Below are positions 51,434-53,640 of a DNA stretch of 64,000 nucleotides, piece after piece. The translations under genes were made by a program, and so were the position numbers. The notes under the pieces were generated by a model. That model did not search any database. It was given only the letters and a program-made list of their open reading frames with translations, and had not been told where the DNA came from. Positions within the stretch are counted from its first letter, which is position 1; each line of letters opens with the position of its first letter. The DNA is from Clostridiales bacterium (GTDB lineage Bacteria; Bacillota; Clostridia; Lachnospirales; Lachnospiraceae): positions 1-64,000 of the forward strand of contig JAAYJU010000092.1 in the NCBI GenBank assembly GCA_012522735.1, read 5' to 3'.

Positions 51434-52225
51434 ATGAAAAGAACCTGGACAGAAGATTTTAAATATGGATTAAAGCGTGGACTGCCAATTGCCATGGGCT
51501 ATGTTCCCGTGTCATTTACCTTTGGGCTTATGGCTGTCTCGGGAGGAATACCGGCCTGGATGGCTATATTTATTTCTCTATCTAATCTGACCTCCGCTGG
51601 TCAGTTTGCGGGGACAAATCTGATTATTATGGGGGCTAGCTATCTTGAGATTACCTTAACCACATTTATTATTAATATTCGCTATATGCTTATGTCTTTA
51701 TCCTTAACGCAAAGGCTAGATAAAAGCATGAGTCTGCCTAAGCGCTTACTGGTTGGGTATGGTGTAACTGATGAGATTTTTTCGATTGCATCTATGGAGC
51801 AAGGAACACTTACCTTTCCATATCTTCTAGGTCTGATAATCGGTCCTGTACTTGGCTGGACCACGGGAACCGCCCTAGGGGCTATCATCAGCGCGGCTCT
51901 TTCAGAAAGTTTAAGTAGCGCCATGGGAATAGCTCTTTACGGGATGTTTATAGCTATTGTACTTCCAGTTGCAAAGAAATCAAAGCAGGTAACTATTATT
52001 GTAGCCATATCTGTAGCGATAGTATGTATCCTACGGTATATGCCCTTGTTTCAGATGATTTCATCAGGCTTTCGCGTTATTATTGCGACAATCATCGGCG
52101 CTGGAATCGGCGCTATCCTATTTCCCATTGAGGATGATAAGGTAGAGGATGAAGATAATTTAGGCGAACAGTATGTACCTTCTCGCTCTAGCTGTGAACA
52201 TGGGGGAAGGGGGTCTATAGAATGA
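51434..52225 (+). CDS. azlC: Branched-chain amino acid permease AzlC
   Basis: GLPIAMGYVPVSFTFGLMA, LSNLTSAGQFAG. Confidence 0.94.
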   Translation: MKRTWTEDFKYGLKRGLPIAMGYVPVSFTFGLMAVSGGIPAWMAIFISLSNLTSAGQFAGTNLIIMGASYLEITLTTFIINIRYMLMSLSLTQRLDKSMSLPKRLLVGYGVTDEIFSIASMEQGTLTFPYLLGLIIGPVLGWTTGTALGAIISAALSESLSSAMGIALYGMFIAIVLPVAKKSKQVTIIVAISVAIVCILRYMPLFQMISSGFRVIIATIIGAGIGAILFPIEDDKVEDEDNLGEQYVPSRSSCEHGGRGSIE

Positions 52226-52530
52226 ATCTAACATATGCTTTTATAGCTGTTATCCTTATGGCTTTAGTAACCTATTTCCCAAGAGTTCTGCCAATCGTGG
52301 TTTTTAGAAAAGAGATAAAATCAAAATATATAAAATCCTTCCTTAGATATGTACCCTATGCGGTACTTGGAGCACTAACATTTCCTGATATTTTCTATTC
52401 TACCAAAAATATTACCACCGCCATATGTGGGACTGTCGTTGCGTTATTTCTTGCATATAAAGAAAAAAGCCTGGTTGTGGTGGCTATCGGGGCAATACTT
52501 GCGGTTTATATAAGTGGGTTGTTTTTATAG
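52222..52530 (+). CDS. azlD: AzlD family protein
   Basis: YFPRVLPIVVFR, overlaps azlC. Confidence 0.92.
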   Translation: MNLTYAFIAVILMALVTYFPRVLPIVVFRKEIKSKYIKSFLRYVPYAVLGALTFPDIFYSTKNITTAICGTVVALFLAYKEKSLVVVAIGAILAVYISGLFL

Positions 52531-52589: not shown

Positions 52590-52711
52590 TCCAAGGAGGC
52601 TTATATGAGAATAGGTATAAATCTTGCATAGCATTGGCTATTGCAGTTTAGTCAAATAAATTTGTTATAGCCATTGCTAATCCTAAGCAAATATATTATT
52701 AGGAGGGCAAA
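52590..52711 (+). promoter_or_regulatory. uORF-hairpin leader 1 (candidate translational attenuator)
   Basis: AAGGAGG-ATG AGA ATA GGT ATA AAT CTT GCA TAG (52605..52631), then TAGCATTGGCTAT...ATAGCCATTGCTA and TCCTAA...TTAGGA pairing at the downstream RBS. Confidence 0.75.
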
Positions 52712-52987
52712 ATGGGCTATTTTAGAGCAGAAGAAATTCTGCCATCGAATATTATTAAGTTAATTCAGAATTACATTGATGGGGAGAATATCTATATTCC
52801 GAGAAAAGAAAGTAATAAGAAGGAATGGGGTTCCCAGACATTGATTAGGCAAGAATTATCGGATAGAAATTCCTCGATTTATTGTGATTATCAGAAGGGT
52901 TATAAGGTATCCGAATTAGCAACAAAGTATTTCTTGTCAGAAAAAAGCATACATCGTATTGTACGTGAATGTAAAAATAATAACTAA
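52712..52987 (+). CDS. CD3324 family protein (HTH-like C-terminus)
   Basis: MGYFRAEEILPSNIIKLIQNYIDGENIYIPRKE...GYKVSELATKYFLSEKSIHRIVRECK. Confidence 0.88.
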   Translation: MGYFRAEEILPSNIIKLIQNYIDGENIYIPRKESNKKEWGSQTLIRQELSDRNSSIYCDYQKGYKVSELATKYFLSEKSIHRIVRECKNNN

Positions 52988-52989
52988 TT

Positions 52990-53027
52990 CATTGAGTCGG
53001 TTCTTAAAACCGGCTCAATCTTTTTTA
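52990..53027 (+). terminator. Intrinsic terminator after CD3324-like gene
   Basis: TTGAGTCGGTTCTTAAAACCGGCTCAATCTTTTTT. Confidence 0.9.
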
Positions 53028-53089
53028 TAAAAATACTTAAGATAGTTTTATAGATATATAAATGCTAGAATCTTATATGAAGAAAAACA

Positions 53090-53210
53090 AAGAAAGGATT
53101 TTATATATGACTACTCCCGTATGTTTTGCATAGCGAAGGCTATTGCAAATATAACAAATTAATATGTAATAGCCTTTGCAAATCCTAAGTCCAATATAAG
53201 GAGATGCAAA
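53090..53210 (+). promoter_or_regulatory. uORF-hairpin leader 2 (candidate translational attenuator)
   Basis: ATG ACT ACT CCC GTA TGT TTT GCA TAG (53107..53133), then AAGGCTATT...AATAGCCTT and AATCCTAAG...AAGGAG pairing. Confidence 0.75.
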
Positions 53211-53561
53211 ATGAGCTATTTAAAAAATAATAAATATATTTCATCCTCAAATGAATCATTTAGAGTAATTCGTAAATGCTCTGTCTGTGGAAAAAAGGCT
53301 ATATTTATTAATAGTAATAAATTTCGGGTTAATGCTAATGGTAGTCGAATTGATGTGTGGTTAATATATCAATGTAAGAAATGTAAGCATACTTACAATC
53401 TGACTATATACGAAAGGGTAAGAAAGGATGCTCTATCCTTAGAGCTATATACGGGCTTTATTGAAAATGATGATGAACTAGCTAGGGTATATGGTAGAGA
53501 TAAATCCCTATTTGTGAAAAACAAGGCTGAGATAGACCTTAGAAGTGGCCCAAGATATTAA
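53211..53561 (+). CDS. DUF1062-like zinc-ribbon protein
   Basis: KCSVCGKKAIFINSNKFRVNANGSRIDVWLIYQCKKCKHTYNLTIYERV. Confidence 0.82.
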   Translation: MSYLKNNKYISSSNESFRVIRKCSVCGKKAIFINSNKFRVNANGSRIDVWLIYQCKKCKHTYNLTIYERVRKDALSLELYTGFIENDDELARVYGRDKSLFVKNKAEIDLRSGPRY

Positions 53562-53590: not shown

Positions 53591-53640
53591 TATAGGAGGT
53601 TGCTTGTATTTCATATAAGCAACCTCCATACATTTTTATA
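53591..53640 (+). terminator. Intrinsic terminator after DUF1062-like gene
   Basis: GGAGGTTGCTT...AAGCAACCTCC followed by T-rich sequence. Confidence 0.85.

Follow-up and report, generated by a model that had tools for sequence, protein, structure and literature searches.

Two tandem genes in a Lachnospiraceae contig each follow a short upstream open reading frame (uORF) and a series of complementary RNA arms. The questions this locus raises are whether the two leaders are switches, what they would sense, and why they precede these particular genes. To address them, we present here an analysis of the window, meaning the whole 64,000-nucleotide stretch of contig JAAYJU010000092.1 that was analyzed, together with related leaders from other genomes. 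From the comparison of leader sequences, each leader is, with a probability of roughly 80%, an erm/cat-like translational attenuator that would turn its gene on when a ribosome stalls in the uORF. A first-pass annotation made from the window had proposed an attenuator-type leader family, and the proposal is supported by 155 distinct leaders whose arms covary.

Organization of the two leaders

The genes, their 8-codon uORFs, and the corresponding ribosome-binding sites lie where the first-pass annotation placed them (Table 1). Leader 1 spans positions 52593-52720 and leader 2 spans 53093-53219. Both contain the sequence TTGCATAGC-3 nt-GGCTATTGCA (52624-52645 and 53126-53147); this common continuation had been recognized correctly, with a spacer given as 4 nt that is actually 3 nt. 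Exactly two copies occur in the 2.8-Mb genome, namely, the two leaders, and the reversed control sequence has zero copies in that genome. Each unit ends in its own terminator-like hairpin, in line with the annotated terminators. A scan of the window for a hairpin plus T run returned 3 sites, against 0.5 expected, and none inside leader 1 or leader 2; with no terminator in the leader, control appears purely translational. The branched-chain amino-acid transport genes azlC-azlD (51434-52530) lie directly upstream of unit 1, probably by chance.

Relative to shuffled sequences, leader 2 folds much better (z -3.8 to -4.7) and leader 1 moderately better (z -1.9 to -2.6), which for leader 1 is weak evidence when taken alone. 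The pairing of the anti-Shine-Dalgarno (anti-SD) element with the downstream Shine-Dalgarno sequence (SD) is as previously described in both leaders. Masking of arms 1 and 2 leaves the 3:4 hairpin as the minimum-energy fold (-17.6 kcal/mol for leader 1 and -14.5 kcal/mol for leader 2). The pairing of arm 3 extends to codons 2-3 of the gene, a feature overlooked earlier, which places the AUG within the sequestering hairpin. For leader 2, there is an additional closed form, in which arm 1 is paired to arm 4 over the 2:3 hairpin. In the free RNA, the 2:3 hairpin lies within the minimum-energy fold, so the off state would rely on kinetics or on arm 1:4 pairing.

Table 1. Positions in the window of the elements of the two leaders and their genes
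Feature	Position	Strand	Remark
SD of uORF1, AAGGAGG	52593..52599	+	Read from sequence
uORF1, MRIGINLA*	52605..52631	+	Read from sequence; homologues keep length and Ala-UAG end
Leader 1 arm 1, TTGCATAGC	52624..52632	+	uORF stop codon inside
Leader 1 arm 2 core, GGCTATTGCA	52636..52645	+	
Leader 1 arm 3, TATAGCCATTGC	52666..52677	+	
Leader 1 anti-SD, TAATCCTAA	52678..52686	+	
Leader 1 arm 4	52699..52720	+	SD, AUG, and gene 1 codons 2-3
Gene 1, CD3324 family	52712..52987	+	91 aa; Mor/Mga-like helix-turn-helix
Unit 1 terminator-like hairpin	52991..53019	+	T run after
SD of uORF2, AAAGGA	53093..53098	+	Read from sequence
uORF2, MTTPVCFA*	53107..53133	+	
Leader 2 arm 1, TTTTGCATAGC	53124..53134	+	uORF stop codon inside
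Leader 2 arm 2 core, GGCTATTGCA	53138..53147	+	
Leader 2 arm 3, TGTAATAGCCTTTGC	53165..53179	+	
Leader 2 anti-SD, AATCCTAAG	53181..53189	+	
Leader 2 arm 4	53196..53219	+	SD, AUG, and gene 2 codons 2-3
Gene 2, DUF1062	53211..53561	+	116 aa; without C-terminal S4-like domain of longer relatives
Unit 2 terminator-like hairpin	53595..53627	+	T run after

Co-evolution of the arms and the gene start

Arm pairing was assessed without an alignment in 100 non-redundant leaders by comparing the duplex energy of each leader's own arms with that of arms taken from other leaders. Own arms pair better than foreign ones for 1:2 (z -13.9), 2:3 (z -14.9), and 3:4 (z -8.9), in agreement with the annotated alternation of arm 2 between arms 1 and 3. 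Own arms are also better for 1:4, as the chain of complementarity implies, and the same-sense controls 1:3 and 2:4 show no own-arm advantage in these leaders. The advantage persists when arms are swapped between nearest relatives. By this comparison, inherited sequence similarity alone does not account for the pairing. Within the initial alignment, both sides had changed in 9 pairs of the 1:2 and 3:4 structure, and the percentage paired fell from 88 to 38-46 when partners were slid by 1-3 columns; the 2:3 helix is 94% paired in the alignment. Compensatory changes include the Ala codon with its arm 2 partner (GCA/UUGC to GCG/UCGC) and codon 7 (TTT/AAA to AAT/ATT), while in L078-L080 an arm 3 of AUAGUCC is matched by the gene start AUGGACUAU. 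The pairings 1:2, 2:3, and 3:4 are mutually exclusive as a set and co-evolve, with 3:4 complementary to the SD and start, as in the erm/cat class. Covariation and leader-peptide conservation, which the first-pass annotation had named as the results whose absence would count against it, were both positive.

Arm 3 and the anti-SD together are complementary, with interruptions, to the SD, the AUG, and codons 2-3 (NGC-TAT). Of the 149 leadered genes, 140 have AGC, GGC, CGC, or TGC as codon 2, 8 have AAC or GAC, and 1 has GGT; TAT is codon 3 in 140. These counts are somewhat biased in that the covariance model described below includes this stretch. NGC at codon 2 covers four different amino acids, so that the residue changes while the nucleotides stay; CD3324 paralogues without the leader mostly have AAA, GAT, AAT, or GAA there. 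The CD3324 and DUF1062 proteins both begin M-x-Y because arm 4 covers the SD, AUG, and codons 2-3. Two unrelated proteins therefore have a common N-terminus, apparently due to an RNA constraint.

Distribution of the leader family

A covariance model built from 26 leaders was run on genome sets of the order, family, and phylum, with the contig's own genome counted in each. Matches were obtained in 37 of 392, 53 of 397, and 3 of 399 genomes, respectively, so the search across Clostridia that had been suggested did find leaders in many relatives. Hosts include Lacrimispora, Anaerovirgula, Clostridium tunisiense, and a Peptococcaceae metagenome-assembled genome (MAG), and the leader is present on two Clostridium plasmids. 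Homologues of the CD3324 or DUF1062 protein in relatives have the same leader with their own uORFs. The 155 distinct leaders precede CD3324 genes in 110 cases and DUF1062 genes in 41, which confirms the position before both gene types noted in the window; the remaining 4 comprise L108 (before a CD3324 gene overlooked by the motif), the apparently broken copies L070 and L185, and one antisense match. The inclusion of arm 4 in the model may favor M-x-Y genes in the search. A pattern that omits arm 4, and is therefore blind to the gene start, occurs at 22 places, all within the known leader set, and the reversed arms 1-3 pattern gave no match. A DUF1062 gene lies inside the fetched locus (mostly ~1.5 kb on each side) at 56 of the 110 leadered CD3324 loci. 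The occurrence of the leader in front of CD3324 and DUF1062 genes only suggests that both act in an uncharacterised response to blocked protein synthesis.

Rfam 15 has no match in the window at the gathering score, and at E values up to 5 only spurious or far sub-threshold ones, consistent with the earlier view that this is not a named RNA family. The layout tolerates changes in its letters. In a Q-type variant, the uORF ends Ala-Gln-stop and the arms read GCTCAG-TAR-TCTGAGC...GCTCAGA, with the stop codon in the loop, the layout kept, and a CD3324 gene downstream. Two leaders (L036:1819-2002, minus strand, and L041:1325-1512, plus strand) keep the arms and carry ~60-70 extra bases in the loop between arms 2 and 3 or in that between the anti-SD and SD. 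At L004:1929-2129, DUF1062 is down to 67 aa and lacks a recognizable uORF, which gives the impression of a unit in decay.

Leader peptides and the proposed switch

As in erm/cat leaders, a short uORF, here of 6-10 codons with an SD-like motif and predicted to be translated, is present in 133 distinct leaders. It is 8 codons long in 95 (most others have 7 or 9), its last codon is Ala in 117, and its stop is UAG in 126, UAA in 7, and UGA in 0. The two main peptide classes are x-T-P-V, mostly before DUF1062, and x-(R/K)-(Y/L)-(V/I), mostly before CD3324; with these two classes at a minimum, and outliers besides, no single arrest motif covers all leaders. A set of 30 DUF1062 leaders, non-redundant and with 8-codon uORFs, includes 24 with Pro at codon 4. 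All four Pro codons are used, and the third base is far more variable than the first two, a pattern that points to selection on the amino acid. Counts within the x-T-P class are conditioned on the class definition, and unconditioned entropies were used instead. Codon 7 varies and is compensated in arm 2, which places the peptide signal in codons 3-5. Seven leaders (L078, L079, L080, L089, L092, L097, and L098) have good arms and no clear 8-codon uORF; in this group, one frame crosses the arms (ESVLCVARAIA*) and another ends R-Y-C-A-stop with no obvious nearby start.

The effect of a ribosome was modeled by limiting folding to the RNA downstream of its placed position and scoring the mean unpaired value at the start region. 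Predicted opening is maximal with the front edge 3-6 nt before the end of the stop, corresponding to about codon 3-4 of an 8-codon uORF in the P site; uncertainty in the effective footprint could shift this by roughly one codon. This was the best position in 69 of 96 cases. The predicted mean unpaired value is 0.42 at the best position and 0.28 for free RNA, a partial opening, since the short anti-SD:SD helix can persist. The peak is gone when the sequence between uORF and SD is shuffled. A ribosome at the stop is predicted to cover arm 2 and leave the gene start closed, while one parked on arm 1 is predicted to remove both closed forms of leader 2. With opening best near codons 3-4 and the peptides conserved there, a stall at codons 3-5 would open the gene.

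The switch we propose starts from the conserved short uORF ending inside arm 1, as seen in the sequence comparison. When the uORF is freely translated, arm 1 would re-pair afterwards. Its partner would be either arm 2, in which case 3:4 would lock the start site, or arm 4 itself, and in both cases the gene would be off. When an elongating ribosome stalls near codons 3-5, arm 1 would be covered and arm 2 free to capture arm 3, thereby exposing the start site and allowing translation of the gene. The place and time of the stall would depend on the residues at codons 3-5 (T-P-V or R/K-Y/L-V). The signal would be a block of early elongation, most plausibly a ribosome-targeting antibiotic class or other translation stress, and the outputs would be a putative DNA-binding regulator (CD3324) and a Zn-ribbon/S4-like protein (DUF1062).

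Signal and alternative explanations

Erythromycin stalls ribosomes at +X+ and XPX motifs, and chloramphenicol does so when the E site is occupied by Ala or, to a lesser degree, by Ser or Thr (PMC13410324). Pleuromutilins, lincosamides, and streptogramin A stall right after initiation and drive cplR (PMC10201436), and in the case of toiL, a single uORF responds to several drug classes (PMC12121999). The M-T-T-P-V of DUF1062 leaders fits XPX (macrolide) or Thr in the E site (chloramphenicol). The M-R-R-Y-V of CD3324-type leaders fits neither of these contexts nor any other found, so no drug can be named; on the evidence of the motifs, we commit to a translation stall as the signal class and to no particular drug.

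The same layout would work for any stall at codons 3-5, including one caused by shortage of a particular charged tRNA or amino acid, as in classical starvation attenuation. Val5 is nearly always GTT, and the locus comes after azlC-azlD, both of which would suit such a sensor. We nevertheless consider it unlikely, as no codon is common to all leaders (codon 4 is Pro, with its four codons, Tyr, or Leu, and codon 5 varies), there is no single-codon run such as in biosynthetic leader peptides, and no azl genes were seen among the relatives' loci listed. The Ala-UAG end, the most conserved part of the uORF by the stop counts above, might instead mark slow RF1 release, with the leader sensing termination through a ribosome acting at the stop. 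That ribosome was rejected as the actor: its footprint covers arm 2, with the gene predicted closed, and pairing with arm 2 accounts for the Ala-UAG letters; moreover, Q-type leaders, whose stop is in the loop, do use UAA. Sensing of termination is accordingly a very improbable role. Slightly less credible still is a ligand riboswitch or protein-binding site to which the uORF is incidental. The strong conserved alternative structures upstream of a putative regulator gene speak for one, but the loops vary in length and sequence with no conserved unpaired core for a ligand, the uORF with its SD is nearly always present and shows coding-type conservation, and the Rfam search gave nothing beyond the spurious or far sub-threshold matches.

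Relation to known systems

The switch logic of a stall-opened translational attenuator is already known from erm/cat attenuators. Like the CD3324/DUF1062 leaders, ermC and cat have a short uORF over arm 1, four alternating arms, and no terminator, with SD and start locked by 3:4 and freed by 2:3 (a prediction for the leaders here). The gene they control encodes a resistance enzyme directed at the inducer, either an rRNA methylase or an acetyltransferase, whereas the targets here are CD3324 and DUF1062 genes. The present leaders further differ in having no sequence match to a known family, a conserved T-P-V or R-Y-V, and an arm 1 that can also pair with arm 4.

The leaders of the ARE-ABCF genes cplR and vmlR likewise combine a short Gram-positive uORF, a stall that frees the gene, and an anti-SD element, but their uORFs have ~3 codons (MRI, MIN) versus ~8 here, and they act largely by transcription termination (PMC10201436, PMC9226507). 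No intrinsic terminator lies between uORF and gene in either leader of the window, and the leaders appear closer to erm/cat than to cplR/vmlR. In Escherichia coli toiL-topAI (PMC12121999), uORF sequence can likewise pair with the gene's ribosome-binding site (here arm 1:4) and uORF stalls relieve repression; that system is tied to Rho-dependent termination and a toxin-antitoxin operon in a different phylum, and the text consulted describes no competing 2:3 hairpin. The actinobacterial whiB7 uORF, as cited in PMC12121999, is likewise a translation-stress uORF controlling a small regulator; phylum and regulator family differ, and we claim no sequence or structural relationship.

In Rfam and the literature searched, which covered few subscription journals, the RNA family, its restriction to CD3324/DUF1062, and the two peptide classes appear undescribed, as does, in the sources searched, the pairing of a putative regulator with a Zn-ribbon/S4-like protein. 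The leaders give two widespread uncharacterised families a testable role in the response to blocked translation, and they could be used as reporters of early-elongation stalls in Clostridia. Among their peptides, M-T-T-P-V and M-R-R-Y-V are candidates for stall sequences; for one of the two, no matching drug context was found.

Target proteins

Gene 1 encodes a small helix-turn-helix protein that scores 113.1 bits against the CD3324 family model NF040785 (cut-off, 65) and has a Pfam Mor match. The AlphaFold2 model of CD3324 (mean pLDDT, 74) has weak Foldseek matches to helix-turn-helix activators, including phage Mu Mor and C; no CD3324 match was found in phages. Gene 2 scores 88.1 bits against DUF1062 (PF06353; cut-off, 23) and covers only profile positions 1-71 of 135. 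It and its nearest relatives in the same genus (112-118 aa) are DUF1062 proteins without the S4-like half. From the AlphaFold2 model of a full-length relative (mean pLDDT, 86), full-length DUF1062 appears to combine an N-terminal Zn-ribbon with a C-terminal S4-like domain. Foldseek matched this relative to E. coli RluD (probability, 0.98) and Hsp15 (0.94), all with E values above 0.1, and the DUF1062 sequence profile weakly matches RluD, YlmH, and a Zn-ribbon RNA polymerase subunit (E values, 0.04-0.8; 0.06-0.8 for RluD and YlmH). Full-length relatives have no Pfam S4 match. 50S subunits obstructed by a nascent chain are the target of Hsp15 and YlmH, and by analogy, a role of DUF1062 in translation stress would fit.

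In the literature searched, which covered few subscription journals, the CD3324 family is not discussed (only unrelated nematode-diagnostics papers matched), and DUF1062 appears only in two expression tables from distant bacteria. We tentatively suggest, as a possibility less probable than the switch itself, that the two form a dedicated Clostridia translation-stress module, in which an RNA stall sensor would switch on a WhiB7-like small DNA-binding activator and a Zn-ribbon/S4 protein acting on stalled or damaged ribosomes, the R-Y-V and T-P uORF classes being tuned to different stalls.

At 7 of 127 loci (L085:2211-2867, minus strand; L088; L131; L141; L142; L155; and L183), a class I methyltransferase gene (Methyltransf_25) separates the CD3324 and DUF1062 genes or adjoins them, too few cases to build on; the one in L085 has its own long inverted repeats upstream. 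On Clostridium acetobutylicum pSOL1 (L207:4001-5110), a chloramphenicol acetyltransferase gene is directly downstream of CD3324, and this leader family is absent there; on pCM027 (L209), a CatB-like acetyltransferase is near the plasmid CD3324 gene, and the leader is present.

Four CD3324 genes of the M-K-Y type (L017, L206, L207, and L210) lack this leader and have other, longer uORFs (ending, e.g., SSRQRL* or SSEQRL*). These overlap with a GCAAAGACTG arm, and in L210, an arm resembling CAGTCTTTG lies downstream. Control by a uORF may accordingly be a general feature of the CD3324 family and involve at least two types of leader. TTG-start CD3324 paralogues (L187-L190, L194-L196, and L198), of which L187 belongs to the contig's own genome (G000:C213), each lie downstream of AGGAGGTGGG(C/A)T and of a short ORF, mostly with an MKSL-like beginning, that seems to enter the gene start, possibly another regulated or coupled arrangement.
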